In this document: positions 1,569 through 59,865 of the stretch, piece by piece
Layout: each line of letters begins with the position of its first letter
Numbering within the stretch: the first letter of the stretch is position 1
Program-made: the position numbers and the translations under genes
The notes under the pieces: generated by a model
Database searches by the model: none
What the model was told of the DNA's origin: nothing
The model's input: the letters and a program-made list of their open reading frames with translations, nothing else
Source of the DNA: Actinomycetospora corticicola
GTDB taxonomy: Bacteria; Actinomycetota; Actinomycetes; Mycobacteriales; Pseudonocardiaceae
Assembly: GCF_013409505.1 (NCBI RefSeq)
Contig: NZ_JACCBN010000001.1
Coordinates: forward strand, 4,526,001-4,590,000
Direction: 5' to 3'
DNA: 64,000 bases

Positions 1569-2969
1569 ATGACGCCGTCGTCCCCCGCCCCCCGACCCGA
1601 CGCCCTCCACGGGGCCGGCGCGGCGGCGGCGGGCGCGGCGGCAGGCACCACCGGCGACCCCCACCTCGACCGCTACGCCGCCCGCACCACGGGGATGACG
1701 GCCTCGGAGATCCGGGCGCTGTTCGCCGTGGCCAGCCGCCCCGAGGTGGTCTCGCTGGCCGGCGGGATGCCGAACCTGGCGGCGCTGCCGCTGGACTCGC
1801 TCGCCGTCGAGGTCGGTGACCTGGTCGCGACCGAGGGCCAGGGCGCGCTGCAGTACGGCTCCGCGCAGGGCGTCCCGGTCCTGCGCGAGCAGATCGGTGA
1901 GGTGATGGCCTTCGAGGCCGGCTCGCTCGCCGCGACCGGCGGGTTCGCGCCGGACGACGTGGTCGTCACGGTCGGCTCGCAGTCCGCGCTCGACATGCTG
2001 ACGCGCCTGTTCGTCGATCCCGGTGACGTCGTCCTCGCCGAGTCGCCCTCCTACGTGGGCGCGCTCGGCTCGTTCGCCGCCTACCAGGCCGAGGTCCGCC
2101 ACGTCGCGATGGACGACGACGGGCTCGTGCCGGCCGCGCTGGAGGAGGCCCTGGAGCGCCTCGCCCGCGAGGGGCGGCGCGCGAAGTTCCTCTACACCGT
2201 CCCGAACTTCCACAACCCGGTCGGCGTCTCGCTCGCCCCCGGACGGCGCGCGCAGGTCGTCGAACTGTGCCGCCGGTACGGCGTGCTCATCGTGGAGGAC
2301 AACCCCTACGGCCTGCTGGGCTTCGACGGGCAGACCTACGAGTCGCTCCGGTCGCTCGACCCGGAGAACGTCGTCTACCTCGGGTCGTTCTCGAAGATCT
2401 TCGCCTCCGGCCTGCGGGTCGGGTGGGCGCTCGCTCCCCACGGCATCCGCGACAAGCTCGTCCTCGCCGCCGAGTCGGCCACGCTGTGCCCGCCCGCCTT
2501 CACCCAGCTCGTCGTCTCGCGCTACCTCGCGACGCACGACTGGCGGAGCCTCGTGAAGTCGTTCCGCGAGATGTACCGCGAGCGGTGCGAGGCGATGCTG
2601 GGGGCGCTCGAGACGCACCTGCCGGAGGGCTGTTCCTGGACGCGGCCGCGGGGCGGGTTCTTCGTGTGGGCGACGGTGCCCGAGGGGGTGGACACCCGGG
2701 CGATGCTCCCGCGGGCCATCTCGGCCCGCGTCGCCTACGCGTCCGGCACCGGCTTCCACGCCGACGGGTCCGGGGCACGCCACATGCGGCTCTCGTTCTG
2801 CTACCCGCCGCCCGAGCGGATCGTCGAGGGCGTGCGACGCCTCGCGGGCGTGCTCGACGGGGAGCTCGAGGTGCTCCGCACCTTCGGTCTGTCCGGGTCG
2901 GGCGCGACCGGCGCCCGCCCGTCGTCGGGAACGCCGGGGCCGCAGGCGCCCTCGGTCGACACCGCCTGA
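1569..2969 (+). CDS. PLP-dependent aminotransferase, class I/II (2-aminoadipate/aromatic type)
   Basis: Fold-type I aminotransferase of 466 residues, similar to LysN/ARO8-type enzymes and to the catalytic half of MocR proteins. The PLP lysine is in SFSKIFASGLRVGW (about residues 273-286), and the NPYGLLGF and NFHNPVG segments are family hallmarks. An Ala/Gly-rich leader of about 35 residues precedes the domain, and a low-complexity tail of about 30 residues follows it. GGAG stands 8 nt before the ATG. The D-Ala-D-Ala-ligase-like gene follows 47 bp downstream. The amino acid substrate cannot be read from the sequence. The iterated 15-bp motif occurs near the 3' end (2917-2931) and in the spacer after it (2975-2989). 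Confidence 0.85.
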   Translation: MTPSSPAPRPDALHGAGAAAAGAAAGTTGDPHLDRYAARTTGMTASEIRALFAVASRPEVVSLAGGMPNLAALPLDSLAVEVGDLVATEGQGALQYGSAQGVPVLREQIGEVMAFEAGSLAATGGFAPDDVVVTVGSQSALDMLTRLFVDPGDVVLAESPSYVGALGSFAAYQAEVRHVAMDDDGLVPAALEEALERLAREGRRAKFLYTVPNFHNPVGVSLAPGRRAQVVELCRRYGVLIVEDNPYGLLGFDGQTYESLRSLDPENVVYLGSFSKIFASGLRVGWALAPHGIRDKLVLAAESATLCPPAFTQLVVSRYLATHDWRSLVKSFREMYRERCEAMLGALETHLPEGCSWTRPRGGFFVWATVPEGVDTRAMLPRAISARVAYASGTGFHADGSGARHMRLSFCYPPPERIVEGVRRLAGVLDGELEVLRTFGLSGSGATGARPSSGTPGPQAPSVDTA

Positions 2970-3002
2970 CTCCCTTCCCGACGACGGATCGCGACCCCGG
3001 AC

Positions 3003-3008
3003 TAGGGT
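3003..3008 (+). promoter_or_regulatory. -10 element (TAGGGT) for a leaderless transcript
   Basis: TAGGGT ends 8 nt before the GTG at 3017. That places transcription start at or next to the start codon. No Shine-Dalgarno sequence is visible for this gene. Confidence 0.45.
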
Positions 3009-9036: not shown

Positions 9037-9167
9037 GTCGCGTTCTCCCCTCGGCCTCCACGGCGCGGTCGCGCTCCATGGTGCCCGCGGCGACGGCCGG
9101 GGGCGACCATCCGGGACGGATCGCCCCGCAGCACCACCCGTCGTCGGGACGCGGGAGGCCGGAGGGG

Positions 9168-11888: not shown

Positions 11889-11940
11889 GCCTTCGCCCCT
11901 TCCCGACGGCGGGTCGCGCCGGTCCGGGCGCTCGCGCCCG

Positions 11941-12214
11941 GCGAGGTTCACATCAGGCATCCCGCCCGCCCCGCAGACCTGCCTCATGTGCACCTCGCGC
12001 CGGCGCTGCCCACCCGCGCCTCGGCGAGGTTCACGTCAGGCATCCCGTTGGCCCCGTGGACCTGCCCCCTGTGCACCTCGCGCCGGCAGCTGACCCTCCG
12101 CACCTTTCCGACGGCGGGTCGCGCCGGTCCGGGCGCGCGCGCCCACCCGCGCCTGGGCGAGGTTCACGCCAGGCATCCCGTCGGCGCCGTGAACCTGCCT
12201 TGTGTGCACCTCGC
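11941..12214. repeat. Triple 58-bp palindromic repeat in oriC
   Basis: Three 58-bp copies lie at 11941-11998, 12024-12081 and 12157-12214. They align without gaps, and 46 of 58 positions are the same in all three. Each starts GCGAGGTTCAC and ends TGTGCACCTCGC, so each can fold into a hairpin; in copy 1 the outer 19-nt arms pair at 17 positions. Copies 2 and 3 are both preceded by CCCACCCGCGCCT. A 41-nt block with 2 differences precedes copy 1 (11899-11939) and copy 3 (12104-12144). Confidence 0.85.
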
Positions 12215-12573
12215 ACCACGGCCCACGCCAGCCCGTCCCGTAGCCCGTTCCGGTGGTCCTCGACGGCCCGACGGCGTGTCCTCCCCGGTGCCGAGGACGG
12301 CCGCGACCACCGTCGACGCCTGCGGTCGCGCCACGTGGTCGTCCGGCACCGACGACCGGCCGCCACCACCGTCCCCGCCCGCGCGACCACGCTGCGCGCC
12401 CGACCAGGCCCCGGATCCGACGCTGCGTGAGCACGAATGGGACAGACGTGCGGTGCGCGGGCGACACGCGCACCCGATCGGGCCGACCGCTCGTCCGGCG
12501 CCCGCCGCGGGAGAGCCGCTCGGCGCGTCGCCGTGGCGGTGCGCGATCGTTCGACCCCCGATCGACCCACAGC

Positions 12574-12594
12574 TGGGGACAAGTCTGTGGACAG
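12574..12594. promoter_or_regulatory. DnaA box pair in oriC
   Basis: TGGGGACAA (12574-12582) and TGTGGACAG (12586-12594) are inverse forms of TTGTCCCCA and CTGTCCACA. They stand 12 bp apart in the same orientation and form the clearest DnaA-binding cluster inside the dnaA-dnaN spacer. Confidence 0.7.
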
Positions 12595-12962
12595 CCGCCC
12601 ACGACGGGTGGATGGAGGGTGGTGCGGGCCGGGGTGCCCGACGTCCGTCCACCGGACACGCCGATCCGTCCCCGGATCCGGGGACGGGCGACCGCGTCCA
12701 CCCACATCCGGTGGGGCCGCCCGACCTGCATCGACGGCGGTGCTCCACAGCGTGCACAGGACCTACTGTCATTCCTGTTCTCTCTCTTCTAGAGAACTCC
12801 TGAAGAACAGGGGTTGGGGAGCGATCGCCCCGCCGGTCCTGCACAGGGCCGGAGTGTCGGACCCCCCTGGCAAGCTCTACCGTGACGACCTGCCCGGATC
12901 CGGGGCCGACGAGTCCCGGGACCCGAGGCAGGCACGCCCGTCCGACACGTCAGGAGAGCCCG

Positions 12963-19605: not shown

Positions 19606-20349
19606 GTGGACACCACCGCTGGGTTGAGCCGGTTGCTGCGGACGGTCGCTCCGCACGCCTGGTTCCTGGAGGACGAGGTCGCGGGTCTCGCGGAGTTCGT
19701 CGGTCCCGGGGCCGTGTGCGTCGACGTCGGGGCGGAGTTCGGCCTCTACACCTGGACCCTCGCCGGCCTCGTCGGCCCGCGCGGCCACGTCCACGCCGTC
19801 GAACCGCAGCCCGGGCCGGCGACGTTCGTCGACACCACCCGCCGGCTCATCGCCGCCGGGCACGTGACCGTGCACCGCACCGCCCTGGGGGCCGCCGCCG
19901 GCTCCGGGGCACTGTCCCTCCCGCGACGCGGCCTCCTCCCGGTCCACGGCCGCGCCTTCCTGACGACGGGTGCGGACGGCCTCGGCTCGAACGCCGAGTT
20001 CGCCCACCACGACGAGGTGCCCGTCGCGGTCGCCACCCTCGACGAGCTGGTCGCCGACCTGGCCCTCGAACGCCTCGACCTGGTCAAGGTCGACATCGAG
20101 GGGGCCGAGGTGAGCCTGTTGGCCGGAGCGGCGAAGACCCTCGAGAGCTTCCGGCCGGTGCTGATGCTCGAGCTCGAGGACCGCCACCTGGCCCGCTTCG
20201 GCGCCCGGGTGGCCGACGTCGTCGACGACCTCGCCGGGCTCGACTACCTCCCGCGGACGTGGCACGGCCGGTGGCTGCCCCGCCGCGCGGACGACGGGCG
20301 CCGCAACGTGCTCTTCCTCCCGGCGGAACAGGTCTTGACCGTCCCTTGA
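19606..20349 (+). CDS. FkbM-family SAM-dependent methyltransferase
   Basis: Protein of 247 residues with the FkbM fold. The SAM-binding loop VCVDVGAEFGLYTWTLA (about residues 37-53) is followed by the acidic VHAVEPQPGP (about 63-72). LDLVKVDIEGAEVSLLAGA (about 156-174) is the signature strand of the family. FkbM enzymes methylate hydroxyl groups on sugars, polyketides or lipids; the substrate cannot be told. The GTG start follows GGAGGGGAGGG. It is placed between gyrB and gyrA together with an MHS transporter, an unusual interruption. The iterated 15-bp motif occurs at 19967-19981 with one mismatch. Confidence 0.85.
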   Translation: MDTTAGLSRLLRTVAPHAWFLEDEVAGLAEFVGPGAVCVDVGAEFGLYTWTLAGLVGPRGHVHAVEPQPGPATFVDTTRRLIAAGHVTVHRTALGAAAGSGALSLPRRGLLPVHGRAFLTTGADGLGSNAEFAHHDEVPVAVATLDELVADLALERLDLVKVDIEGAEVSLLAGAAKTLESFRPVLMLELEDRHLARFGARVADVVDDLAGLDYLPRTWHGRWLPRRADDGRRNVLFLPAEQVLTVP

Positions 20350-24476: not shown

Positions 24477-25367
24477 GTGAGCACACCGGACGAGAGCAAG
24501 GGCGGGGGCTCCGCCGAGGACACGGTCGTCACGAGCGCGGCCGGCGACGAGCCGGCCGCCAAGGGCGGCTCCGCGGCGGGCGACCGGCCCGCCGGCGGAC
24601 CGCCCCCGCCCTGGCAGCGTGCCGGGGCCCGCGGCTCCGCCGACCCGGCGCCGTCGGGTCGCGACGGCGAGCCCCGGGGCGAGTCCCCGACGTCGGGTCC
24701 GTCGGGCACCTCCGCGGGTCCCACGTCACGGCCGCCCACGGGGCCGCTCCCCGCCGGGGGACCGGGCACGCCCGCCGCGGGGACCCCCCGCCCGGGCGGG
24801 ACGGGCCAGGTCGCGCCGGGAGCGGGCGGCCAGGGACCAGCGGGCCAGGGTCAGCGGTCGACCACCGCGCTGATCGACGCGCCGACCAACCAGCTGTCCC
24901 CGGAGCAGCTCGGCATGCGGACCGGGGGGCGCGCGGAGCCGGAGCCGGACTTCGACGCCCTCGACGACGACGAGCCGCGCAGCGCGCGGCCGGCCCGGGG
25001 CAAGGTGCCGCGGCGGGCGAGCCTGCAGGTCAAGCGGTTCGACCCGTGGTCGGTGCTCAAGCTGGCCCTGGTGCTGGGCGTGGCGCTGTTCTTCGTGTGG
25101 ATGTTCGCGGTGGGCGTGCTCTACGCGGTCCTCGACGGCATGGGCGTCTGGGCGCAGCTCAACGGCACCTACCAGGACCTCACCTCGGACGCCGGGGGCG
25201 GCGGTGGCCAGCTCATCACCGCGGGCGGGGTGTTCGGGGTGGCGGCCATCATCGGCGTTGTCAACACGATCCTGTTCACCGCGCTCGCGAGCGTCTCGGC
25301 GTTCATCTACAACATCTCGGCCGACGTCGCGGGCGGCATCGAGGTCACCCTCTCCGAGCGCGACTGA
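24477..25367 (+). CDS. DUF3566 membrane protein (Rv0007-like)
   Basis: Protein of 296 residues. The first 180 residues are disordered and rich in Gly, Pro, Ala and Asp. The DUF3566 domain starts near ASLQVKRFDPWSVLKLAL (about residue 182) and has two membrane segments, one at about residues 194-218 and one at about 245-280. DUF3566 proteins lie directly after gyrA in most actinobacteria, including Rv0007 of M. tuberculosis. The function is unknown; a link to the division or growth zone has been suggested for relatives. GTG start. The iterated 15-bp motif occurs with one mismatch at 24684-24698. Confidence 0.85.
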   Translation: MSTPDESKGGGSAEDTVVTSAAGDEPAAKGGSAAGDRPAGGPPPPWQRAGARGSADPAPSGRDGEPRGESPTSGPSGTSAGPTSRPPTGPLPAGGPGTPAAGTPRPGGTGQVAPGAGGQGPAGQGQRSTTALIDAPTNQLSPEQLGMRTGGRAEPEPDFDALDDDEPRSARPARGKVPRRASLQVKRFDPWSVLKLALVLGVALFFVWMFAVGVLYAVLDGMGVWAQLNGTYQDLTSDAGGGGGQLITAGGVFGVAAIIGVVNTILFTALASVSAFIYNISADVAGGIEVTLSERD

Positions 25368-27083: not shown

Positions 27084-28261
27084 GCGTCTCCTCGCATCAC
27101 CTCGTGGAGGTTCGCGACCAGCATCGCCGCGAACTCCGGGTCGTTGACGTGCAGATCGGTCTCGACCAGCCGCCGGTCGTCGGTCTGCTGCAGTTCCGCG
27201 CGCAGGGTGTCCAGCAACGCCGCGGTCGCCTCCGGGTCGGCGAAGGGACCGCCGGCGACGTCGAGGGCCGAGACACCCGCCGTCGGGAAGACCAGGCGCA
27301 CCGGGCCCTCGCAGGCGTTGAGACCCGCCGCGAGGAACCGCGCGGCGGCGCGGCACTCGTCGGGGGTGGTGCGCATGAGGGTCACCTGCGCGTTGTGCTC
27401 GTAGAGGGTCCGGCCCCGGTACCGCTCGGGCACGGTGTCGGGTGCCCCGAAGTTGACCATGTCGAGCGCGCCGACGCTGCCCACCCACGGGACCCGGCGT
27501 CGGGCGATCGCGCCGAGCCGGTCGTCGGTGGCGGCCATGATCCCGCCGGCCACGAGGTCGGCGATCTCGGTGGTGGAGACGTCGACGACCCCGGAGATCA
27601 GTCCGTCGTCGACGAGCTTCTCCATGGCGCGCCCACCCGTGCCGGTGGCGTGGAAGACCAGGCAGTCGTAGGCGTCGGCGAGCTGCTCGGTGACGGCTGT
27701 GACGCACGGCGTGGTCACCCCGAACATCGTGAGGCCCAGCGCCGGCTTGTCGACCGCCTCGACCGGCGGTGCGGACAGGGCCCCGGCGAGGGCGTGCGCC
27801 GCGTTGGAGAGCACCACGCGGCTGATGCGGTTGAGCCCGGCGACGTCGGTGACGGAGTACATCAGCGTGATGTCCGAGGACCCGACGTACGGCGCGGTGT
27901 TCCCCGACGCGACCGTCGAGACGACGATCTTCGGCACGCCCACCGGCAGCCGCTGCAGCGCCGGGGTGACCAGCGCGGTCCCGCCCGAGCCGCCGAGCCC
28001 GATCACCCCGTCCGGGTCCTGCTCCGGCAACCAGCGCTCCAGGGCGTCGGCCATCGCGGCCACCGAGGTGCCGCGGTCGCCGGTGAACGCGGCCCGGTCG
28101 GCGACGTCGGCCGGCGTGACGTCGGCCCGTCGTGCGTCGGGATCCGAGGTCCCGACGTCGACCGTCGTCACCTCGTGTCCCGCGCCCCGGATCGCGTCGG
28201 CGACGTAATGCAGCTCGTCGCCCTTCGTGTCGAACGTGCCCACCACGTAGGCGTGCGCCAT
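27080..28261 (-). CDS. Tm-1-like ATP-binding protein (UPF0261)
   Basis: Protein of 393 residues of the UPF0261/Tm-1 N-terminal family. [20 protein letters not shown] (residues 3-22) is the usual start. Glycine-rich [18 protein letters not shown] (about 86-103) and [20 protein letters not shown] (about 200-219) are the nucleotide-binding loops expected from the Tm-1 structure. GGGAGG lies 4 nt before the ATG. It is the first gene of a two-gene operon with the TIM-barrel protein. Bacterial function is not established; the pair probably forms one enzyme. The iterated motif occurs exactly at 27275-27289. Confidence 0.82.
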
Positions 28262-28545: not shown

Positions 28546-29058
28546 CCCCGCGGCGTCGCGCAGGACGCCGAGCACCGTCGCCTCGTCGAGCTCGGCGAGC
28601 GCGGCCTGCAGCCACAGGCCGTCGACGGCCGCCGCGAGGAGCGCGGGCCGCGGTGCCCCCAGTCGCGCGGCGAGCCCGGCGAGCGTGGTGCGCCAGCGAT
28701 CGACCTCGCCCCGCAGGTCGGCGCGGCGGGCGGCGAGCAGGAACAGGTCGTACTCGGCGATGAGCGTCGACCGGTCCGACGCCGCGATCACGGCGGCGAG
28801 CCCCGTCAGCGTCGTGACGGCCTCGAGCTCGGCGACGTAGCGGTCGTTGACCTCGACCAGCGTGCTCACGAGCAGGTCGTCCACCGACGCGAAGTGGTAG
28901 AGCACCGCGCTCGGCGGCACGCCCGCCTCGTCGGCGACCCGGCGCTGGCTCACGCCCGCCGGTCCGTCCCGCGCGATCACCCGCAGGGTGGCGTCGAGGA
29001 GTTCCCGACGCCGGGTCGCGCCACGGCGCCGTCGCCCGTCGGCGATCGGCTCAGCCAC
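28519..29058 (-). CDS. TetR/AcrR-family regulator of the SMR pump
   Basis: Protein of 179 residues. The N-terminal HTH is intact: RRELLDATLRVIARDG, then VSQRRVADEAGVPPSAVLYHFAS (about residues 36-58). The C-terminal ligand domain is typical. It overlaps the SMR gene stop by 8 bp, so it is co-transcribed behind it and is probably its repressor; a palindrome before the SMR start is the likely operator. Its last nine codons lie antisense within tRNA-Ala, giving a tail GWRQGESNP with no family counterpart. The true protein may depend on transcription running into the tRNA. The iterated motif occurs exactly at 29002-29016. Confidence 0.85.
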   Translation of the reverse strand: MAEPIADGRRRRGATRRRELLDATLRVIARDGPAGVSQRRVADEAGVPPSAVLYHFASVDDLLVSTLVEVNDRYVAELEAVTTLTGLAAVIAASDRSTLIAEYDLFLLAARRADLRGEVDRWRTTLAGLAARLGAPRPALLAAAVDGLWLQAALAELDEATVLGVLRDAAGWRQGESNP

Positions 29059-31656: not shown

Positions 31657-31723
31657 GGCGGCAGCGTGCGTGGCGACCCGGCGGTGCCGGTAGCCCCCGA
31701 CCGTTGAATGGGCGGACCCGGCG

Positions 31724-32470
31724 TCAGGAAGTCCCCAGCCGGGCGCGGATGCGCCGGGCCGCCTCGGTCAGCGCGGGCACGGTGCGCGCGGCCTCGCCGT
31801 CGTTCGGCACCACGACCGACACCGCGGCGACCACGTGCCCCCCGGGGTCGCGGACGGGCACGGCGACGCCGGTGGCGTCGAGGTGGATGTAGCCGGGGCA
31901 GAGGGCCACGCCGCGATCGCGGACCTCGGCGAGCCGGGCCCGCAGCACGCCGGCGTCGGTGATCGTGTTCCGCGTGAAACCGGCCAACGGGCGCGCGAGG
32001 ACGCGCTCCTGCAGCGTGGTCGAGGCGAAGGCGAGCAGCACCAGTCCCGACGACGAGGCGTGCAGCGGGAGCCGGGCGGCGATCCGGGTCAGGTTGATCA
32101 CCGCGTGGTCGGCGGAGAGCCGTTCGACGAAGAGCACCTCGTCGCCGTCGAGCACCCCGAGCTGGGCGTGCTGGGCGATCGTGCGGTGCAGGTCCTCCAG
32201 CACCGGCATCGCGGTCTCGCGCAGCGAGAGAAAGGACGACGCCCGGGCCGCGAGCTCCCACAGGCGGGTGCCCACCCGCAGCCGCCGGTCGTCCCGCACG
32301 AGCAGCCCGTGCCCGACCAGCTCCGCGACCAGCCGGGACGCCGTCGCGGGCGGGAGGTCGGCCCGCCGGGCGATCTCGGTGACGGCGAGCGCCGGCGCCT
32401 CGGGCGTGAAGCACTCCAGGATGCGGACGATCCGCTCGAGCACCGACTCGCCGGAGTCGGACCGCGCCAT
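31724..32470 (-). CDS. IclR-family transcriptional regulator
   Basis: Protein of 248 residues. The winged HTH is at the N-terminus (ILECFTPEAPALAVTEIARR, then DLPPATASRLVAELVGHGLL, about residues 38-57). The effector domain has the typical GLVLLAF and CPGYIHLDATGVAVPV segments. IclR proteins such as PcaR and PobR control aromatic catabolism, and this one sits between the MFS transporter (TGATG overlap) and the reductase-P450 pair. A parS-like sequence (31966-31981) lies inside the gene. It probably senses the aromatic substrate of the cassette. Confidence 0.88.
   Translation of the reverse strand: MARSDSGESVLERIVRILECFTPEAPALAVTEIARRADLPPATASRLVAELVGHGLLVRDDRRLRVGTRLWELAARASSFLSLRETAMPVLEDLHRTIAQHAQLGVLDGDEVLFVERLSADHAVINLTRIAARLPLHASSSGLVLLAFASTTLQERVLARPLAGFTRNTITDAGVLRARLAEVRDRGVALCPGYIHLDATGVAVPVRDPGGHVVAAVSVVVPNDGEAARTVPALTEAARRIRARLGTS
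31966..31981. promoter_or_regulatory. parS-like site in the IclR gene
   Basis: TGTTCCGCGTGAAACC has one mismatch (A to G) to the 14-bp core GTTCCACGTGAAAC. It is intragenic and about 19 kb right of oriC. Weak ParB binding is possible. Confidence 0.4.
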
Positions 32471-43770: not shown

Positions 43771-44543
43771 CCGGACCACCCCTCGAGCACCGGCTGATCC
43801 TCCCGGCGACCCGACCACCCGACCGGCACCGACCCGTCGTCGGGAACGAAGCACCGCGCACTGATCGCGACCGCCAGGAGCGGGCAGCCGCCCGCGTCCC
43901 CGCGCGTCATGCGCGACTCGAGCTTGCCGAGGTGCGTCGTCGTGGAGGTGGAGAACCGGCTGCGCACCTGCTCGTCGGACTGTCCCGCGGCGCGGGAGAG
44001 CCGCCGGGCGAGGTCGCGCAGGTCGTCGTGGGTGCGGGTGAGGAGCACCGCCCCGTCGATGAGGCCCGCGTCATAGAGGCTGCGGTAGGCGCCGATGTCG
44101 CGGTCGAGGTTGCCGTCCTTGGCGTTCCACTCGACGTCCAGCGCGACCCGCCCCTTGACGTTGTCGACCTTGTACCCCTCGTTGCGGACCTCGTCGGTCC
44201 GTTCGACGACCTCGTGCTCCCCGGCCGGGGCCCACGGCTGCACCTGCAGCACGGAGCGCACCACGGTGTCGACCCGGCCCTCGCGCCAGCCCCGGGAGCG
44301 GAAGTCGGTGTTGAGCCGCGCGGCCAGCTTCGACTCGTTCCCGCCGGCCTCGGTGAGGTCGACGGTGGTCAGGACGAAGGCGGCGAGCACGGCACAGAGC
44401 TCACCGAATTCCTCCGGTCCCGTGGCGGCCAGGATCGCCGCCGCGTTGCGGGTCTCGCGCAGCTCGTAGCGCTCCGCGAGGTCGGCCAGCACACCCAGTG
44501 AGCCACCCGGCACCGCCTGCGACCAGCTGTGCGTGAGCTCCAC
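43767..44543 (-). CDS. BglII/BstYI-like type II restriction endonuclease
   Basis: Protein of 258 residues. VALDVEWNAKDGNLDRDIGA (about residues 132-151) carries the D/E-x-n-E-x-K-type catalytic site expected of the BglII/BstYI family, and NKD-like AKDGNLDRD is typical there. HLGKLESRMTRGDAGGCPLL near the C-terminus is another conserved block. BglII cuts AGATCT and BstYI RGATCY; the target here is unknown. It lies before the methylase gene, overlapping by GTGA. GTG start. The iterated 15-bp motif occurs exactly in its 3' end (43832-43846), encoding VPDDGS. Confidence 0.8.
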   Translation of the reverse strand: MELTHSWSQAVPGGSLGVLADLAERYELRETRNAAAILAATGPEEFGELCAVLAAFVLTTVDLTEAGGNESKLAARLNTDFRSRGWREGRVDTVVRSVLQVQPWAPAGEHEVVERTDEVRNEGYKVDNVKGRVALDVEWNAKDGNLDRDIGAYRSLYDAGLIDGAVLLTRTHDDLRDLARRLSRAAGQSDEQVRSRFSTSTTTHLGKLESRMTRGDAGGCPLLAVAISARCFVPDDGSVPVGWSGRREDQPVLEGWSG

Positions 44544-44611: not shown

Positions 44612-46132
44612 ATGACGACGACACCCGCCCGCGGGACCGCGCTCCCGCCACTCACCGTCCGTCCTGCGGTGGCACCGTTCGCCCGACGTCCGGTGCTGCT
44701 GATCGCGGCGGCGGTCGCGCTCCTGCTCGGAGCCGTCTCGTCGCGCTACGGCTGGTTCGGCGACGAGTACTACTTCGTCTCGGCCGGCGCCCGCCCGAGC
44801 CTCGGGTACGCCGACCAGCCGCCGCTGCTCCCGCTGCTCGCGGCCCTCCTCGACCGCCTCGCGCCGGGGAACCTGGTCGTCCTGCGGCTCCCCGCGACCC
44901 TCCTGACCGCCGCCGGCACCGTCGTCGCGGCCCTCATCGCGCGGGAGTTCGGCGGTGGTCGTCGCGCCCAGGTGCTCGCGGCCGCCGTCACCGCGATCAG
45001 CCCGTACCTGCTCGCCACCGGCCACCTGCTCGCCACCTCGACCCTCGACCCGGTCTGCTGGGCCGTGGTGCTCTGGCTGCTCGCCCGGTGGATGCGTCAG
45101 CAGCGCGACGGTGCCGCGGACGACCGGCTGCTGGCCTGGCTCGGGCTGGCCGTCGCGGTGGCGCTGTTCGGCAAGGTGCTGATCGTCGTGCTGCTGGGCG
45201 CGGTACTGGTCGGGGTGGTCGTGTCCGGCCCGCGGCGGCTGCTCGGCCGACCGTGGTCGTGGGTCGGTCTCGGCCTCGCCGCCCTCACCACGATCCCGAC
45301 CCTCGTCTGGCAGGCCACCCACGGCTGGCCCCAGCTGCGGATGGGCTCGGTCGTCGCGGGCGAGTCCGACCTCTTCGGCGACCGCTGGCAGTTCCTGCCG
45401 CGCGCGTTGTACTACGCCGGCGTGCTGCCGGGCGCGGTGCTCGTCGTGGTCGGGGTGTGGGCGCTGCTGCGGTACCCCCCGCTGCGGGCATGGCGCGCGC
45501 TCGGGTGGGCGTCGGTACTGGTCACCGCCGTCCTGCTCGCGGCGGGTGGGCGGCCCTACTACCTCTCCGGCCTCTACGCGCTGCTCATCGCGGCGGGGTC
45601 GGTGGCGGCCTGCTCGCTGCCTGCTTCCCGACGTCGGGCGTGGTGGCGGTGGGTGGTCCACCCGGCGGTGGTCGTCGTCGCGGCGGTGGTGACGGTGCTG
45701 TGGGTGCTGCCCTTCGGGCCGGCGTCGTGGCGGGCCACGTCCGAGTTCGAGACGATGGGCCAGGTCGGCTGGTCGGACTTCGCGGCCGGCGTCGCGCGGC
45801 AGTGGCGGGCGCTGCCGCCCGGGACGGTCGTCGTGGCCTACTCGTACTGGTACGCGAGCGCGCTGGAGCACGAGGGCCCGAGGTATGGGCTGCCGACGCC
45901 CGTGTACTCGACGCACCGCGGGTTCGGGTACTTCGACGTCCCGCCGGGCTCGGCCGACGCGCTGCTCGTGGGCGACGTGAAGTGGGCGCCGCGGTTCTGC
46001 TCCCGGTTGGTGCCGCTCCCCACCTACGTGGGGCCGCAGGTCACGCCGGTGAACGACCGGGTGCTGCTCGCCGTCTGCACGCCCTCGCGGCCCTGGTCGG
46101 AGGCGTGGCCATCGTTGCGGAACCTGGCCTGA
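44612..46132 (+). CDS. GT39-family membrane glycosyltransferase (ArnT/PMT-like)
   Basis: Protein of 506 residues with about 11-12 membrane helices. The first loop has the catalytic acidic pair in GWFGDEYYFVSAG (about residues 47-59), typical of the dolichyl-phosphate-mannose-type GT-C fold. GYADQPPLLPLLAALL follows. The C-terminal 130 residues are a soluble extracytoplasmic domain. Such proteins transfer a sugar from a polyprenyl phosphate to a protein or lipid at the outer membrane face. GGAGG 7 nt before the ATG at 44612 decides the start. It is divergent from the restriction gene. Confidence 0.85.
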   Translation: MTTTPARGTALPPLTVRPAVAPFARRPVLLIAAAVALLLGAVSSRYGWFGDEYYFVSAGARPSLGYADQPPLLPLLAALLDRLAPGNLVVLRLPATLLTAAGTVVAALIAREFGGGRRAQVLAAAVTAISPYLLATGHLLATSTLDPVCWAVVLWLLARWMRQQRDGAADDRLLAWLGLAVAVALFGKVLIVVLLGAVLVGVVVSGPRRLLGRPWSWVGLGLAALTTIPTLVWQATHGWPQLRMGSVVAGESDLFGDRWQFLPRALYYAGVLPGAVLVVVGVWALLRYPPLRAWRALGWASVLVTAVLLAAGGRPYYLSGLYALLIAAGSVAACSLPASRRRAWWRWVVHPAVVVVAAVVTVLWVLPFGPASWRATSEFETMGQVGWSDFAAGVARQWRALPPGTVVVAYSYWYASALEHEGPRYGLPTPVYSTHRGFGYFDVPPGSADALLVGDVKWAPRFCSRLVPLPTYVGPQVTPVNDRVLLAVCTPSRPWSEAWPSLRNLA

Positions 46133-48739: not shown

Positions 48740-50212
48740 ATGCGCAGCGCCCTCTGGTTCGTCCTCGTCCTCGTCCTGCTGGTCGCGGCGTGCTCCGGGC
48801 CGACGCCGGCACCGGCCCCGGCCGCGGAGGGGCCCGCTCTGGTGACAGGGGCGCTGGTCGGGACGGGCAGGGCCACCGTGCCGCGCCTCGACTGGCGGCC
48901 CTGCGGGACGTTCCAATGCGCCACGCTCACCGCGCCGATGGACTACCGGAACCCCACGGGCCCGACGATCGCGCTCGACGTCACCCGCCTGCCCGCGCTC
49001 GACCCGACGTCGCGGATCGGGACGGTCGCGGTCAACTACGGCGGGCCCGGGACGCCGGGCACGACCAGCCTGCGTCGACTCGCCGGGCGCTTCGACGGGG
49101 TCCGCGCCCGGCTCGACGTCCTCGCCCTCCAGCCACGCGGCGTCGACCAGGTGCGGTGCGGTCCGTACGACGGCGAGCCGGCGCAGCCGGTCGGGTCGCC
49201 CCTGTCGGACCCGGCGGGCTTCTGGACCTCCGCCCGGGCGATCGGGCAGGCGTGCCGAGCCGGCACCGGTGAGCTCCTCGGTCACCTCTCCACGGCGAAC
49301 GCGGCCCGTGACCTCGACCTGCTCCGCCAGGCCCTCGGCGAGGCCACGATCAGCGTGTACGGCTACTCCTACGGGACCTACCTCGGCGCCACCTACGCCA
49401 ACCTGTTCCCCGGTCAGCTGCGCGCGCTGGTCGTCGACGGTGCGCTCGACCTCGTCGCCAACGCCGGCACCGACGACCCGACGCGGCCGGTCGACGTCCG
49501 CGCCCACGTCGCCGCCGCGCGCGAGGAGGCCCTCGACGCCTTCGTCGCCGCGTGCGCCGCCGCCGGCCCCCGCTGCGCCGCCAACCCCGATCCCGGTGCT
49601 CGCGTCGCCGCCGCGGTCGGTGCAGCCACGCGGGCCGGGACGTCCGCGCAGCTCGCGGCGCGCGTCGGCACCGCGCTGGAGTCGGGCGGGCGCCTCACCG
49701 GGCTCGCCCGCGCCTTCCCGACGTCAGGTCCGGTCCCGCCGGTCCCCGACCTCGCGGCCGGGGCGCCACCGCACTCGACCGACTTCCTCGCCGTGCAGTG
49801 CACCGACGTCGTCACCCCGAGCGCCGAGCAGACGACCGCGCTCCTGCCGGCCGAGCAGGCCGCGCACCCGCTGTTCGGGGTGCCGGTCGCCCTCAACACC
49901 GCGGCGTGCGTCGACTGGCCCGCGATCGACCCCGACCGCTACCTCGGGCCCTGGAACGCTCCGCTCCCCGCGCCCGCGCTGGTCGTGAACTCCCGCTACG
50001 ACCCGGAGACCCCGCTCGCGAACGCCCGCGCGACGGCGGCCCAGCTCTCCGCGGCCCGGCTCCTGGTCGTCGACGGCTTCGGCCACACCACGCTCGACCT
50101 GCCGAGCCGGTGCGCCACCGACGCGGCGGCCGCATACCTCCTCGACCCCACGCGTCTCCCCGCCGAGTGGACGGTGTGCCCGCCCGACCCCGGCGGCGTG
50201 CCGTTCGCGTGA
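48740..50212 (+). CDS. Secreted tripeptidyl-aminopeptidase-like alpha/beta-hydrolase (lipoprotein)
   Basis: Protein of 490 residues. A lipoprotein signal is present: ALWFVLVLVLLVAACSGP, with the lipobox Cys about residue 19. The alpha/beta-hydrolase core has the nucleophile Ser in GYSYGTYLGATYANLFP (about residues 211-227), an acid in NSRYDPETP, and the catalytic His in GFGHTTLD (about 450-457). The TAP-like C-terminal domain is typical of actinobacterial tripeptidyl aminopeptidases (SlpD/SlpE type) and related Mtb lipoproteins. It is anchored outside the cell, and the natural peptide is unknown. Confidence 0.88.
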   Translation: MRSALWFVLVLVLLVAACSGPTPAPAPAAEGPALVTGALVGTGRATVPRLDWRPCGTFQCATLTAPMDYRNPTGPTIALDVTRLPALDPTSRIGTVAVNYGGPGTPGTTSLRRLAGRFDGVRARLDVLALQPRGVDQVRCGPYDGEPAQPVGSPLSDPAGFWTSARAIGQACRAGTGELLGHLSTANAARDLDLLRQALGEATISVYGYSYGTYLGATYANLFPGQLRALVVDGALDLVANAGTDDPTRPVDVRAHVAAAREEALDAFVAACAAAGPRCAANPDPGARVAAAVGAATRAGTSAQLAARVGTALESGGRLTGLARAFPTSGPVPPVPDLAAGAPPHSTDFLAVQCTDVVTPSAEQTTALLPAEQAAHPLFGVPVALNTAACVDWPAIDPDRYLGPWNAPLPAPALVVNSRYDPETPLANARATAAQLSAARLLVVDGFGHTTLDLPSRCATDAAAAYLLDPTRLPAEWTVCPPDPGGVPFA

Positions 50213-52898: not shown

Positions 52899-53181
52899 AG
52901 CCGTGCTGGTAGAGCCGCTTCTCCCGGATCAGCGGCGAGAAGATCGCGGCCATGAACATCGCGGAGAACCACACGAAGCAGGGCAGGGCCACCCGTAGCC
53001 AGCCCGGTCCCGGCAGCAGGGCGAGCAGGGCCACGGGCAGGCACTGCACGGTGGTCCGCGCGAGCTGACGCAGGAACCAGGTGCGCACGGTGAGGTCGTG
53101 CAGCACCCAGCTCCCGTACGTCACCGGCAGCCGGGCCCCGAACGCATAGCCCAGCCACCGCAGGACCCCGGGTCTACGCAC
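52861..53181 (-). CDS. DUF5313 small membrane protein
   Basis: Protein of 106 residues. LRWLGYAFGARLP, WVLHDLTVRTWFLRQLARTT and MFMAAIFSPLIREKRLYQHG follow the DUF5313 pattern of actinobacteria, with two predicted membrane segments. The function is unknown. GTG start; its first 8 bp overlap the end of the FAD/Fe-S gene, so it is the last gene of that operon. Confidence 0.75.
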   Translation of the reverse strand: MRRPGVLRWLGYAFGARLPVTYGSWVLHDLTVRTWFLRQLARTTVQCLPVALLALLPGPGWLRVALPCFVWFSAMFMAAIFSPLIREKRLYQHGFMPEIVLGRRDE

Positions 53182-56116
53182 GCAGCCCCAGTGCCTGCGC
53201 CGTGAGCCGCGCGAGGTGGGTCGGCTCGTGCCCGGCGCTGTCCAGCTGGCGGATCTGGGTCCGGCAGGAGTAGCCGTCGGCGAGCACGGTGGTGTCCGCC
53301 GCCGCCTCCCGGACCTTCGGCATCAGGCCGCGCTCCGCGCACGCCGTCGAGACCTCGTAGTGCCCGTCCTCGAACCCGAAGTTCCCGGCCAGGCCGCAGC
53401 AGCCCTCGTCGAGCACGTCGGCCTGCACCCCGAGCGCCGCCATCACCGCGCGGTCGGCGTCGGTGCCCAGCTCGGCGTACTGGTGGCAGTGGATCTGGAC
53501 GAGGGCCTTCCGCTCGGCCCCGTCGGTCAGCTCCGCGAGCTGGTCGGTGTGGTCCGCGAGCACCTCGGCGAACGTCCGGATGGACTTCGACGCCACCTGC
53601 GCGAGGTCGTGGTCGCGCCCCAGCACCTTGAGCGAGTCACCGCGTAGCGCGGCGGTGCACGAGGGCTCCAGGCCCACGATCGGCACCCCGTCCTCCAGCC
53701 ACGGCCGGATGCGCTCCAGCGACCGCTCGATCACCTTCCGCGCGACCGACACCTGTCCCGTGGTCACCCACGTCAGTCCGCAGCACACCGTCTTCTGCGG
53801 CAGCTCCACGCGGTACCCGAGCGCCTCGAGCACCGCGATCGCGTCGAGCGCGAGCTCCGGGTCGAAGGCCGGGGTGAAGGAGTCGGTCCACAGCAGGATG
53901 CGCTTCCCGACGTCGGGTCGCGCCTGGTGCTTCTTCACGTCCATCAGCCGCCGCAGCGGCTTGGGCGCGAACGGCGGGATCGAGCGCTGCGGGGCGATGC
54001 CGCCGGCCTTCTTCGCGATCGACGCCAGGGCGGGGCGCTTCGCCAGCGCGTTGGCCATCCGCGGGGCGCCCGGGATCTTCGAGGTGATCGCGAGCCACGC
54101 CGGCAGCCAGCCCATCGACCAGTGCGAGCGCGGCCGGTCCTTCGCGCGCCCGGCGTAGTGCTGGGCGAGGAACTCGGTCTTGTAGGTCGCCATGTCGACG
54201 CCGACCGGGCAGTCCCGCGAGCAGCCCTTGCAGCTCAGGCACAGGTCGAGGGCGTCCTCGACCTCCTGGGACTGCCACCCGTCGGGCACGGTCTGCCCGG
54301 ACGCCATCTCGAACAGCAGGCGGGCGCGACCCCGGGTGGAGTGCTTCTCCTCGCCGGTGACGCGGTAGCTCGGGCACATCACGCCGCCGCTCGCGGTGAT
54401 GCACTTCGCGACGCCGATGCAGCGCCGGGTCGCCGACGCGAAACCGGTCTCCGGGTCGCCGTCGTGGATGAAGTCGAGCTGCGTGCGGGTCGGGATCGTC
54501 GGCTGCCCGATGAAGACCCGGATGTCGGAGTCGATCTTCGGCGGGTCGACCACGCGGTGCGGGTTCATCCGCCCGTCCGGGTCCCACGCCGCCTTGAAGT
54601 CGGAGAACGCCTCCATCATCTTCGGCGAGTACATCCGCGAGAGGAGCTCGGCGCGGGCCTGCCCGTCGCCGTGCTCGCCGGAGAGCGACCCGCCGTGCGC
54701 GACGGCGAGGTCGGCGGCGTCCTCGAGGAACGCCCGGAAGTTCTTCAGACCCGCCGTCGTGAGCAGCTGGAAGTCGATCCGGACGTGCACGCAGCCGTCG
54801 CCGAAGTGCCCGTAGTAGGCGCCGGTCCGGCCGTGCTTGCTCAGCAGGTCGTCGAACTCGCGCAGGTAGGAGCCGAACTTCGCGGGCTGGACGGCGGCGT
54901 CCTCCCAGCCCGGCCAGGCCTCGACGCCGCCGGGACCGCGCGTGACGATGCCCGACCCGTCCTCGCGGATCTTCCACAGCGCCCGCATGGCCTTCGGCTC
55001 GCTGACGACCTTGGAGTCGACCGTCGCCCAGGCCATCTCCTTCGCGATGGCCTCGGCCTTCTCGTGCGCCTCGCCGCGGGTCTCGCCGCCGGTCTCGACG
55101 TAGAGCCAGCCCTTGCCCCGGGGGAGCGCCTCGTGGGTGCGGTCGTCGGGCCGGGCGGAGCGCAGGGCGCCGATCACGCCGACGTCCATGCCCTCGATCG
55201 TCAGCGGCGCGTGGTCGCGGATCGGGACGACGTGGTCGGCGGCGGCGTAGGCGTCGGAGAACCCGAGGACGGCGAGCGCGCGGACCGGCGGGCTCGCGAC
55301 CATGTCGACGGTGGCCTCGAGGATCGTCACGCAGGTGCCCTCGGTCCCGACCAGCGCCTTCGCGAGGTCGAAGCCGTGCTCGGGCAGCAGCTGGTCGACG
55401 TTGTAGCCGCTCACGCGACGGGTCAGGTCGGGGGTGTCGGTGCGCACGAGGTCGGCCGTCCGGTCCCGGAGCGCCTTGAGGTCGCGGTAGACCCGGCCCT
55501 CGCTGCCGGCCCGGCGGGCGGCGGCGTCGATCGCGGCGTCGTCCATCGGGCCGCCGACGTGCATCCGCGTGCCGTCGGCGAGCAGGACGTCCAGCTCGCG
55601 GACGTTGTCGACGGTCTTGCCCCACGCCACCGAGTGCGACCCGCAGGCGTTGTTGCCGATCATCCCGCCGAGCGTGCAGCGGTTGTGGGTCGACGGGTCC
55701 GGGCCGAAGGTCAGCCCGTGCGGCTTCCCGGCGTCGCGCAGGTCGTCCAGCACGGTGCCGGGCTGCACCCGTGCCGTTCCCGACGACGGGTCGATCTCCA
55801 GCACCCGGCGCATGTGCCGGGAGAAGTCCACGACGACGGCCTCGTTCACCGACTGGCCGCAGATGCTCGTCCGGGCCCCGAGGGGGAGCAGCGGCACCCC
55901 GTGGCGCCGGGTGACCTCGACGGCCCGCTCGACGTCGTCGCCGTCGACGGGCTGGACGACTCCGAGCGGCACGTGCCGGTAGTTCGACGAGTCCGCGGAC
56001 CACATCGCCCGCGTCGCGGTGTCGAAGCGGACCGATCCGCGGACGGCTCCGGCGAGCTCCTGGGCGAGCAGGGAGTGCTCCGCGTCTGCGCCGGGGCGGA
56101 TCGGTGCGGTGGTCAT
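53174..56116 (-). CDS. FAD-binding and Fe-S oxidoreductase fusion (GlcD-GlcF/D-2-hydroxyacid dehydrogenase type)
   Basis: Protein of 980 residues. The N-terminal half is a PCMH-type FAD domain (GVPLLPLGARTSICGQS about residues 69-85; TLGGMIGNNACGSHS about 136-150). The C-terminal half has two 4Fe-4S motifs, one near residue 565 (RRCIGVAKCITASGGVMCP) and one at about 621-637 (CLSCKGCSRDCPVGVD), and two CCG repeats (VCCGLTW, GCCGLAGNFGFE) of the heterodisulfide-reductase kind. E. coli YdiJ, a D-2-hydroxyglutarate dehydrogenase, has the same layout. Substrate: a D-2-hydroxyacid. Two exact copies of the iterated motif lie inside (53904, 55777). ATG at 56116. Confidence 0.88.
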   Translation of the reverse strand: MTTAPIRPGADAEHSLLAQELAGAVRGSVRFDTATRAMWSADSSNYRHVPLGVVQPVDGDDVERAVEVTRRHGVPLLPLGARTSICGQSVNEAVVVDFSRHMRRVLEIDPSSGTARVQPGTVLDDLRDAGKPHGLTFGPDPSTHNRCTLGGMIGNNACGSHSVAWGKTVDNVRELDVLLADGTRMHVGGPMDDAAIDAAARRAGSEGRVYRDLKALRDRTADLVRTDTPDLTRRVSGYNVDQLLPEHGFDLAKALVGTEGTCVTILEATVDMVASPPVRALAVLGFSDAYAAADHVVPIRDHAPLTIEGMDVGVIGALRSARPDDRTHEALPRGKGWLYVETGGETRGEAHEKAEAIAKEMAWATVDSKVVSEPKAMRALWKIREDGSGIVTRGPGGVEAWPGWEDAAVQPAKFGSYLREFDDLLSKHGRTGAYYGHFGDGCVHVRIDFQLLTTAGLKNFRAFLEDAADLAVAHGGSLSGEHGDGQARAELLSRMYSPKMMEAFSDFKAAWDPDGRMNPHRVVDPPKIDSDIRVFIGQPTIPTRTQLDFIHDGDPETGFASATRRCIGVAKCITASGGVMCPSYRVTGEEKHSTRGRARLLFEMASGQTVPDGWQSQEVEDALDLCLSCKGCSRDCPVGVDMATYKTEFLAQHYAGRAKDRPRSHWSMGWLPAWLAITSKIPGAPRMANALAKRPALASIAKKAGGIAPQRSIPPFAPKPLRRLMDVKKHQARPDVGKRILLWTDSFTPAFDPELALDAIAVLEALGYRVELPQKTVCCGLTWVTTGQVSVARKVIERSLERIRPWLEDGVPIVGLEPSCTAALRGDSLKVLGRDHDLAQVASKSIRTFAEVLADHTDQLAELTDGAERKALVQIHCHQYAELGTDADRAVMAALGVQADVLDEGCCGLAGNFGFEDGHYEVSTACAERGLMPKVREAAADTTVLADGYSCRTQIRQLDSAGHEPTHLARLTAQALGLRA

Positions 56117-58037: not shown

Positions 58038-58134
58038 GCCGGTCAGTCTCCCGAGGGTCACGTGGGGCAGGTCCCGGGGCCCCGGAACCTGCGTGGTGTG
58101 ACCCTCGTCGGGCCGGGAGCTGAGCGACCCGTCG

Positions 58135-59865
58135 TCAGGAACCCGCGACCGGGACGCGCGGCGGCACAGTCGGGACGGGCAGCGTGACGGTGCGCAGGGC
58201 ACCCGGGGCGTCGGCCGGCACGACCGGGTGCACCGGGGCGACCGGCTCCAGCCGCTCGTACCCCGCACCGAGCGGCGGGCGCGGGTCGGTCTCGCCCTTG
58301 TTCGGCCAGAACGACATGGCGCGCTCGGCCTGCGCGGTGATCGTGAGCGACGGGTTGACGCCGAGGTTGGCCGAGAGCGCCGAGCCGTCCACGACGTGCA
58401 GGCCCTCGTACCCGTACAGCCGCTGGTAGGCGTCGATGACGCCGTCCGCGGGCGAGCTGCCGATCGCGCAGCCGCCGATGAAGTGGGCGGTCATCGGCAT
58501 GTTCACGGCCTCGCCCCAGGTGCCGCCCGGGTCGCCGTCGATGATCTCGGCCATCCGCCGGGTGGTGGCGTTCGCCGCGGGGATCCACGTCGGGTTCGGG
58601 GTGCCGTGGCCCTGACGGGAGACCAGGCGGCCGAAGCGGCGGCGGACGGTGATCGAGTTGTCGAGCGACTGCATCACGAGCGCGATGACGGTGCGCTCCG
58701 ACCAGCGGCGCTTGTCGAAGGACCGCGCGAACCGTCCGGGGTGGCGCACGGCCTGACCGAGGATCTTCAGCCCGCGCGGGACGCGGCCGCCGCCGTCGGT
58801 CATGAGCGTGGTGAGCAGGCCCATCGCGTTCGAGCCGTAGCCGTAGCGGCAGGGCTCGATGTGGGTGTCGGGGTCCGGGTGCCACGACGAGGTGATCGCG
58901 ACGCCCTGGGTGAAGTCGCGGGGGCCGCCCCGCTCGGAGGCGCGGCGGGACATCGCGCCGACGAGGGCCTCGGAGTTCGTGCGGGTCAGGTGTCCGAGCC
59001 GCGCGGAGATGCTCGGCAGCACGCCCGTGTCGCGCAGGCGGTGCAGCAGCGACTGCGTGCCCCAGGTCCCGGCCGAGAAGATCACCTGGTCGGCCGTGTA
59101 GACCGTCCGGCGCCGCCGGCCCTTCCGCGTCGGCCGCGTGACCACCTCCCACCCCCCGTCAGGACGCGGACGCACCGAGAGCACCGTCGTCTCCGGGTAC
59201 ACGAGCGCCCCGGCCCGCTCGGCGAGACCGAGGTAGTTCCGGTCGAGGGTGTTCTTCGCGCCGTGGCGGCAGCCGGTCATGCACTCGCCGCACTCGATGC
59301 AGCCGGTGCGGTCGGGTCCCGCGCCGCCGAAGAACGGGTCGGGCACCGTGACGCCCGGGCCCTCGCCGAAGTACACGCCCACCTGCGTCGGGGTGACGGT
59401 GTCCTCGCGGCCCCACTCGCGTGCGACCTGGCGCATGACCTCGTCCGACGGGGTCACGGTCGGCTGCGTGACGACGCCGAGCATGCGCTGGGCCTGCTCG
59501 TAGAACGGGTCGAGCTCGGCGCGCCAGTCGGTGATCGAGGCCCACTGCGGGTCGCGGTAGAACGCCTCGGACGACGGCTGGTAGAGCGTGTTCGCGTAGT
59601 TCAGCGAGCCGCCGCCGACACCGGCCCCCGCGAGCACGACGACGTCGCGCAGCACGTGGATCCGCTGGATGCCGTAGCAGCCGAGCGCCGGGGCCCAGAG
59701 GAAGTTGCGGACGTCCCAGGACGTGGAGGGCAGCGTCTCCGGGCTGAACCGCCGCCCCGCCTCGAGCACCCCGACCCGGTACCCCTTCTCGGTCAGACGC
59801 AGCGCGGAGACGCTGCCGCCGAAGCCGGAGCCGATGACCAGGACGTCGTGGTGGTGGTCGCGCAC
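58135..59865 (-). CDS. GMC-family oxidoreductase (ChoD/cholesterol-oxidase-like)
   Basis: Protein of 576 residues. The FAD motif is VLVIGSGFGGSVSALRLTEK (about residues 8-27). GAGVGGGSLNYANTLYQP (about 80-97) and IGGCAIGSSPADGVIDAYQR plus LHVVDGSALSANLGVNPSLT (about 504-523) are the GMC C-terminal hallmarks. A cysteine-rich GCIECGECMTGCRHGAKNT (about 188-206) is as in Mtb ChoD (Rv3409c). Such proteins oxidise sterols or other alcohols. TAACGT stands 6 nt before the GTG at 59865, a leaderless spacing. It lies 97 bp upstream of pepE. Confidence 0.87.
   Translation of the reverse strand: MRDHHHDVLVIGSGFGGSVSALRLTEKGYRVGVLEAGRRFSPETLPSTSWDVRNFLWAPALGCYGIQRIHVLRDVVVLAGAGVGGGSLNYANTLYQPSSEAFYRDPQWASITDWRAELDPFYEQAQRMLGVVTQPTVTPSDEVMRQVAREWGREDTVTPTQVGVYFGEGPGVTVPDPFFGGAGPDRTGCIECGECMTGCRHGAKNTLDRNYLGLAERAGALVYPETTVLSVRPRPDGGWEVVTRPTRKGRRRRTVYTADQVIFSAGTWGTQSLLHRLRDTGVLPSISARLGHLTRTNSEALVGAMSRRASERGGPRDFTQGVAITSSWHPDPDTHIEPCRYGYGSNAMGLLTTLMTDGGGRVPRGLKILGQAVRHPGRFARSFDKRRWSERTVIALVMQSLDNSITVRRRFGRLVSRQGHGTPNPTWIPAANATTRRMAEIIDGDPGGTWGEAVNMPMTAHFIGGCAIGSSPADGVIDAYQRLYGYEGLHVVDGSALSANLGVNPSLTITAQAERAMSFWPNKGETDPRPPLGAGYERLEPVAPVHPVVPADAPGALRTVTLPVPTVPPRVPVAGS

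Follow-up and report, generated by a model that had tools for sequence, protein, structure and literature searches.

Long iterated words with many genic copies are known mainly from two Gram-negative families, where they act as uptake sequences, and from cyanobacteria, where the function of the highly iterated palindrome (HIP) HIP1 is open. Here, we describe the 15-bp word TTCCCGACGNCGGGT in Actinomycetospora (Pseudonocardiaceae). It was noticed in a 64-kb stretch of Actinomycetospora corticicola DNA (the window: C1 4526001-4590000 of genome G000, a single contig of 6,166,488 bases) and was followed through the genome, the genus and the phylum.

In PMC2397512, the DNA uptake sequences (DUS) of Neisseria are described as conserved words that sit where the core genome is permissive, with many recent copies too unlike their site-free orthologs for point mutation. 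Inverted DUS pairs at terminators appear in both that paper and PMC3630211, the latter also describing uptake-sequence dialects of Neisseriaceae that follow the core-genome tree. According to PMC4390886, published HIPs accompany a cognate methyltransferase, which HIP abundance tracks. In Micrococcus luteus, transformation requires tad genes and is abolished by deletion of comEC (PMC4322843).

The Actinomycetospora word shares several habits with the DUS of Neisseriaceae and the uptake signal sequences (USS) of Pasteurellaceae: hundreds to thousands of copies, genic and intergenic sites in permissive DNA, a core that is conserved while outer bases may vary, restriction to a clade and, perhaps, inverted pairs at the ends of some genes. 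It is, however, unrelated to them in sequence and phylum, longer and sparser, and no type IVa pilus marker was detected with it. Like HIP1 and the alternate HIPs of cyanobacteria, it is an iterated near-palindromic word, mainly genic and present in some lineages only. Unlike HIP1, it has 14 fixed bases rather than eight, is not a full palindrome and is enriched between genes; unlike HIPs, it is accompanied by no methyltransferase common to all its carriers in the three families tested. Its intergenic and gene-end habits fit uptake sequences better than HIPs. The sites of Noc, ParB, MatP and SlmA are likewise dyad-like, 14-16 bp long and scattered over the chromosome, but the present word has far more copies, no pattern relative to origin or terminus evident in the sample and no extra ParB in G000. 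Chi and the FtsK-orienting polar sequences (KOPS) are polar short words found genome-wide; they follow a strand rule that is not strong here.

Copy number and distribution of the word

The window contains 32 sites, seven exact, 10 with one mismatch and 15 with two; an earlier note on this DNA had reported the same first two counts. For sites with up to two mismatches, 100 dinucleotide shuffles gave an expectation of 2.44 and a largest value of 7. The whole genome holds 490 exact copies (239 forward and 251 reverse), and the reversed pattern, used as a control, 0 + 0. Markov models predict 0.043 (order 3) to 0.082 (order 5) exact copies in a 464-kb sample of G000 in which 37 are observed (36 if piece ends are skipped), which scales to about one expected copy per genome. 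The strong over-representation claimed in the earlier note is thus borne out, far above the third-order expectation, as is the equal use of both strands, and the word is found genome-wide and in relatives as well as in the window. A relaxed form, KTCCYGACGNCRGGT, occurs 932 times in G000 (reversed control 0), and the 9- to 11-mers of the motif head the over-represented words of the G000 sample, the first-ranked 12-mer belonging to another dispersed repeat. In 80 kb of the motif-free Actinomycetospora straminea (G004), no comparable word was seen (best 12-mer 8 times, 0.79 expected). Openly licensed PMC papers yielded no report on the motif in Actinomycetospora, on uptake sequences in Actinobacteria or on the word itself, in line with the earlier note, whose author did not recognise it as described in this group. 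A scan of viral contigs gave, among the 80 matches listed, 79 with one motif match and one with two.

Among 18 Actinomycetospora genomes, five form a high-copy set with 463-529 exact copies each: G000, G001, Actinomycetospora termitidis (G006), Actinomycetospora chiangmaiensis (G014) and Actinomycetospora soli (G016). The two nearest relatives are low-copy, with 44 in Actinomycetospora endophytica (G015) and 24 in G009. G013, which is 59% complete, has 18, and the other ten genomes have 0-1 each. Counts of the relaxed word are 813-959 in the high-copy five, followed by 119, 102, 54 and 0-4 (reversed control 0-1). None of the remaining 82 of 100 relatives contains more than 3 copies, and none of 395 other genomes of a phylum sample more than 2. 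The motif is therefore confined to one branch of Actinomycetospora. GyrA identity to G000 is 97% within the high-copy group, 95% for G015 and G009 and 91-93% for the rest, and in oriC-region DNA G015 and G009 are nearest each other (85%). When the genome collection was scanned with a window protein, the matches listed comprised 18 relatives, namely 13 Actinomycetospora, 4 Rhodococcus and 1 Arthrobacter.

The low-copy genomes share some of their sites with the high-copy ones. For eight of 15 low-copy sites with up to one mismatch, G000 or G006 has a copy with up to two mismatches at the same place (two of these eight being one orthologous site), and for one more such a copy is present in G016. 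Most of the sites that G000 and G006 have in common show no sign of the word in G015 (4.36 vs 3.12 mismatches; 14 of 37 alignable).

Anatomy, placement and conservation

The strongest core of the motif is GACGNCGG, and change is tolerated at T1, C4, C5, G12 and T15. The N at position 10 favours A, then G, and there is a weak preference for C before and G after the motif. Two features interrupt the dyad CCCG-ACGN-CGGG, the T2/T15 pair and the purine, and give the site a direction, which refines the earlier description of it as nearly palindromic. In 190 one-mismatch sites (from 854 kb of G000 and 480 kb of G006), the commonest changes are T1>G (54), C5>T (24) and T15>C (17), followed by G12>A, C4>A and T1>A with 12 each. 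C8, G9 and C11 never change, and G6 does so twice, neither time to A. The C-to-T and G-to-A changes sit at C5 and G12, which are dyad partners, and an earlier hint of CpG decay is not upheld. In 14 of 38 TTCCTGACG sites with up to two mismatches the word overlaps a TGA stop codon, in 16 the CTG is read in frame as Leu, and in the remaining 8 neither applies; this variant therefore looks like a tolerated compromise with coding rather than methyl-CpG decay. A+T is raised at flank offsets +24 and -12 (297 of 298 sites), a signal confounded by codon periodicity.

About one-third of exact sites lie between genes (33 of 108, with 75 genic), compared with an intergenic share of 9.6% in the G000 sample, an approximately threefold enrichment (p 1e-9); the intergenic numbers are 46 of 190 with one mismatch, 41 of 316 with two and 105 of 860 with three. 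Genic exact sites occupy all six frames, unevenly (30 of 75 in sense frame 1; 41 sense, 34 antisense). The earlier proposal that selection acts on DNA rather than on protein is supported. Of the genic sites with one mismatch, more are sense than antisense (95:49), in part through CTG in frame and further codon effects. Of 79 intergenic sites with up to one mismatch, 20 lie within 20 nt past a stop codon on the same strand vs 4 on the opposite strand (p 0.002, with some sites orthologous between G000 and G006 and hence not independent), and 8 further sites overlap their own gene's stop.

Orientation to replication is only mildly biased. Right of oriC, exact sites number 20+/22- in G000 and 22+/14- in G006 (60:48 and 58:34 with one-mismatch sites included), and over twenty scattered 20-kb pieces of the chromosome sites are fork co-oriented vs opposite at 51:43, the terminus being assumed opposite oriC; as the earlier note held, the word is not strongly polar in the manner of KOPS or Chi. 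Each of these pieces contains 1-8 sites with up to one mismatch, and the spacing is Poisson-like (coefficient of variation 0.93 in G000 and 1.24 in G006).

Pairs of sites were sought in 1.33 Mb at a spacing of 16-40 bp, with up to two mismatches per site, and comprise 6 inward, 1 outward and 6 direct pairs. All inward pairs are 22-26 bp apart; two lie within called genes and four at gene ends, three of the latter between convergent genes (G000 4620350/4620376; G006 253783 and 287241 in stretch coordinates) and the fourth adjoining one gene end. Folding energies of these four range from -31 to -38 kcal/mol, and z lies below -4 for three of them and at -1.6 for the other, whereas a single site folds weakly (z -1.4 for one assembled 25-mer).

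Conservation was assessed in 494 kb of G000 compared with G006 and G015, the G015 stretch covering part only. Identity between G000 and G006 is 0.845 over the aligned stretch and 0.63 at fourfold-type sites. In the ungapped-ortholog test, for which 23 of 43 exact G000 sites were usable against G006 and 9 of 43 against G015, 10 of the 23 are exact in G006 vs 3.5 expected from flank divergence (P 0.0006), and in the reverse direction 10 of 18 exact G006 sites are exact in G000. Column identity, which needed well-aligned flanks (30 sites for G006 and 23 for G015), is 0.86-0.93 at inner positions 3-14 except N between G000 and G006, and falls to 0.68 at N, 0.59 at T1 and 0.70 at T15.

The comparison with G015 gives another picture. 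Site flanks are 0.75-0.76 identical vs 0.81 at random sites, which marks the DNA as permissive, and exact sites are less alike than these flanks (0.655 vs approximately 0.756 at the 23 sites). Ungapped sites carry 4.8 vs 3.1 mismatches (9 exact) and 4.9 vs 3.4 (23 including one-mismatch sites), and at least five mismatches are found in 6 of the 9 (2.0 expected) and in 14 of the 23 (6.5 expected). In genic sites with up to one mismatch, the encoded residue is shared with G015 at 139 of 253 codons vs 1119 of 1679 flanking codons (Fisher p 0.0004), the proportion for random genic codons being 0.79. Taken together, the excess of differences from G015, the codon changes and the conservation in G006 indicate that the word was built at a cost to protein sequence and that a good part of the sites was then kept. 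In the comEA-comEC region, one of three motif positions is found again in all five high-copy species and the other two in four each, the match being judged by offset from comEC, not by alignment.

Candidate reader and competing explanations

G000 carries comEA (HhH and SLBB), comEC and a tad-like cluster. Of seven encoded proteins that were scanned, five gave the expected matches: ComEA, ComEC, TadA (T2SSE), TadB (T2SSF) and a small pilin-like protein (Tad). For the Flp-like pilin the match was to DUF4244, and for the TadE-like protein there was none. In the com loci of ten genomes and the tad loci of thirteen, in-house gene calls revealed no extra gene confined to high-copy genomes. A 197-aa gene beside comEA/comEC is present in all six other genomes of the clade that were compared (four high-copy, two low-copy) and unmatched in three motif-free ones, while six motif-free tad fragments carry a gene of approximately 215 aa unmatched in G000; TadB in G001 and TadF in G009 are unmatched, perhaps an effect of gene calling. 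The gene-presence comparison over the 494 kb gave no usable candidate within the part covered by the G015 stretch.

Some observations on these loci stand apart. In G009, a genome with only 24 exact copies, three motif copies (two exact and one with one mismatch) lie within 87 bp just upstream of comEA (L330:6291-6377). In G015, an insert of approximately 57 kb (C9 ~1815236-1872585) splits tadA close to the Walker A codons. The first gene of the insert is, judged by sequence, serine-recombinase-like; the insert is probably a prophage or integrative element inside the pilus ATPase gene, and it is reminiscent of the prophages found in comK. The tadA match of the high-copy genome G001 (C4:248833-250107) crosses one TGA.

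The DUS-like habits of the word, together with the presence of comEA, comEC and tad-like genes, lead us to favour, tentatively, an uptake or recombination tag of the DUS type. The motif would be a sequence-specific recognition site, upheld at hundreds of places by a clade-specific machine that recognises it in the chromosome or in DNA released by conspecifics. The competence apparatus, perhaps a Tad/Flp pilus with ComEA/ComEC by analogy with M. luteus, would have a DNA receptor that prefers site-bearing DNA, and recombination of the imported DNA would spread and preserve sites wherever coding sequence allows. We infer, rather than show, the competence of these bacteria, the preference of uptake for the site and the identity of its reader. 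Going further, it is possible, if doubtful, that a DNA uptake sequence is seen here for the first time in a Gram-positive or actinobacterial lineage, with a Tad/Flp-pilus competence system as its reader and with three stages (0-1, tens and approximately 500 copies) represented in one genus. If it is a true uptake signal, self-preferring transformation would have at least one further origin, and there would use a different pilus. A genus that includes carriers, relatives with few copies and non-carriers allows the origin of such a signal to be followed, and the defined 15-bp word offers a bait with which to find its reader.

Several results weigh against an uptake tag. comEC (PF03772) and tadA (split in G015) are each found in 16 of 18 genus genomes, motif-free relatives included, so the competence machinery does not track the motif. 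PilM_2 is absent from all 15 near-complete genomes, with one weak match in the 59%-complete one, so there is no Neisseria-type (type IVa pilus) system; ComP itself was not searched. These two points and the lack of a reader are the weakest parts of the proposal. Conservation is also uneven: over the whole 15 columns, G000/G006 identity (0.843) hardly exceeds that of the flanks (0.833/0.808), and no excess conservation is seen at 29 one-mismatch sites (2.34 vs 2.45 mismatches, by a yardstick that ignores their starting mismatch). Unshared DNA is only weakly depleted, with 13 sites in 92 kb vs approximately 21 expected (G000 p 0.05, G006 p 0.36), and G000 DNA lacking a match in the G015 stretch is not depleted. 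No mosaic of between-species recombination was seen in these species, whose synonymous sites are close to saturation. The sites are thinly spread (one per 4-7 kb, variants counted), and close pairs overall are not in excess in G000 (7 vs 6.7; G006 10 vs 4.3).

The main rival, unlikely in our judgement, holds that the word is bound by a protein that organises the chromosome or otherwise acts on DNA inside the cell (a nucleoid, condensin-loading or repair factor) and that gained its specificity within this clade, the sites being kept for chromosome structure or repair. Their chromosome-wide spread and Poisson-like spacing, the long dyad-like core with symmetric tolerance at C5/G12 and the conservation of exact sites would suit such a protein, but no gradient between origin and terminus is evident in the pieces (by inspection, with no formal test), and the same-strand bias past stop codons and the inverted pairs would not be predicted. 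ParB was rejected as the reader: G000 has a single ParB_N match, with parS-like sites nearby, and by eye its helix-turn-helix stretch does not differ from that of the motif-free species G004 and G008. The parS-like sites are imperfect and lie near parB, at window positions 6117 and 6883 (CGTTTCACGTGGAACG, CGTTCCACGTGAAACG); a perfect 12-bp parS core was absent from the stretches of nine genomes tested. Selfish spread, in which the host gains nothing while the motif is copied to new places by a site-specific nuclease or converting enzyme, is improbable. It would explain why sites differ from G015 more than their flanks do, and why at some, such as 4844263 compared with G006, approximately 15 bp are replaced within well conserved flanks. 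Yet the persistence of exact sites over near-saturated synonymous divergence asks for upkeep, and many differences between high-copy species amount to one or two substitutions.

A HIP-like product of a methyltransferase and methyl-directed repair, quite improbable here, would fit an iterated near-palindrome lying mainly within genes, and PF02384 matches exist in four of the five high-copy genomes (G014 and G001, weak in G016 and G006). The single-contig G000, however, has no PF02384 and no PF01555 match, and its one PF00145 gene, a C5 methyltransferase gene (C1:291217-292230), belongs to a family that among the five occurs also in G014 but not in G001, G006 or G016. None of the three families, the only ones searched, is common to all five genomes; as a common cause they were rejected, and the analogy with HIPs drawn in the earlier note fails in its mechanistic form. 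For a methyltransferase, a specificity of 14 bases is long. Transcription terminators or RNA elements at gene ends are very improbable: intergenic enrichment, the post-stop bias, the hairpins of inverted pairs and the sense lean of one-mismatch genic sites point towards them, but most exact sites are genic on either strand and a single site folds weakly. Repetitive extragenic palindromes, bacterial interspersed mosaic elements and miniature inverted-repeat transposable elements do not fit the same genic majority, and several site-free orthologs align without insertion (for example 4581777, 4699411 and 4844263), others being gapped. Chance, codon usage or a repeated peptide is as good as ruled out. 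PDDGS-type peptides do recur and sense frame 1 is preferred, but sites fill all six frames and intergenic DNA, and the reversed control of 0 and the 0-1 copies in ten of 17 other genus genomes leave no room for it.

Sites of the window and other observations

The window holds dnaA, gyrB and gyrA (by Pfam) with tRNA-Ile and tRNA-Ala, and is therefore taken to be the oriC region. The gap after dnaA (11888-12963; presumed oriC, before presumed dnaN) contains two motif copies, at 11900 and 12105. The exact and one-mismatch sites are listed in the table.

Table. Exact and one-mismatch sites in window coordinates, with mismatches (mm) to the word at orthologous places; gene coordinates come from a simple in-house gene caller, not from annotation
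Word	Position	Strand	Context	Orthologs
exact TTCCCGACGGCGGGT	11900..11914	+	intergenic, 11 nt past dnaA stop	exact G001; 1 mm G016, G009; 2 mm G014, G006
exact TTCCCGACGGCGGGT	27275..27289	-	within gene 27080-28261(-)	exact G001, G014, G016; 2 mm G006; 6/5/6 mm G015/G009/G004
exact TTCCCGACGCCGGGT	29002..29016	+	within gene 28519-29058(-), antisense	exact G001, G016, G006 with different N base; 7 mm G014
exact TTCCCGACGACGGGT	29883..29897	-	within gene 29501-30736(-)	1 mm G016, G006; 2 mm G001; 5 mm G014
exact TTCCCGACGACGGGT	43832..43846	-	within gene 43767-44543(-)	exact G001, G016; 2 mm G006; 3 mm G015, G009
exact TTCCCGACGTCGGGT	53904..53918	+	within gene 53174-56116(-), antisense	exact G001, G014, G015; 1 mm G006; 3 mm G009
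exact TTCCCGACGACGGGT	55777..55791	+	within gene 53174-56116(-), antisense	exact G001, G014, G006; 6 mm G009
one-mismatch	2917..2931	-	in gene 1569-2969(+), antisense	
one-mismatch	2975..2989	+	5 nt past stop of gene 1569-2969	
one-mismatch	9136..9150	-	intergenic, 17 nt past a stop	
one-mismatch	12105..12119	+	intergenic, 216 nt past dnaA stop	
one-mismatch (C5>T)	19957..19971	+	in gene 19606-20349, in-frame CTG	identical word G001, G014, G016, G006, G015, G009; 3 mm G004
one-mismatch	24684..24698	+	in gene 24477-25367	at least 4 mm in seven aligned relatives
one-mismatch (C5>T)	31716..31730	-	TGA is stop codon of gene 31724-32470(-)	
one-mismatch	45625..45639	+	in gene 44693-46132	exact G001, G016; 7 mm G006
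one-mismatch (G12>A)	49715..49729	+	in gene 48740-50212	exact G014
one-mismatch (C5>T)	58127..58141	-	TGA is stop codon of gene 58135-59865(-)	

A viral-contig scan with the DnaA frame found no relative. In A. termitidis (G006, C1:527569-531378), gyrA is interrupted near residues 139-146 by approximately 1.24 kb that leaves the frame open (1272 aa), an interruption resembling an intein.

Three species each carry a different dispersed repeat. Those of G015 (C9 ~1523175 and elsewhere) and G006 (stretch position 7285 and others) lie between convergent genes, often as two inverted arms, in 8 of 9 and 10 of 11 cases, respectively, among those listed, and are probably families of bidirectional terminators that differ between species. 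The G000 repeat, GACAGCAACGACGCTTTCCTGCCA, lies within called genes in 3 of the 4 matches listed.

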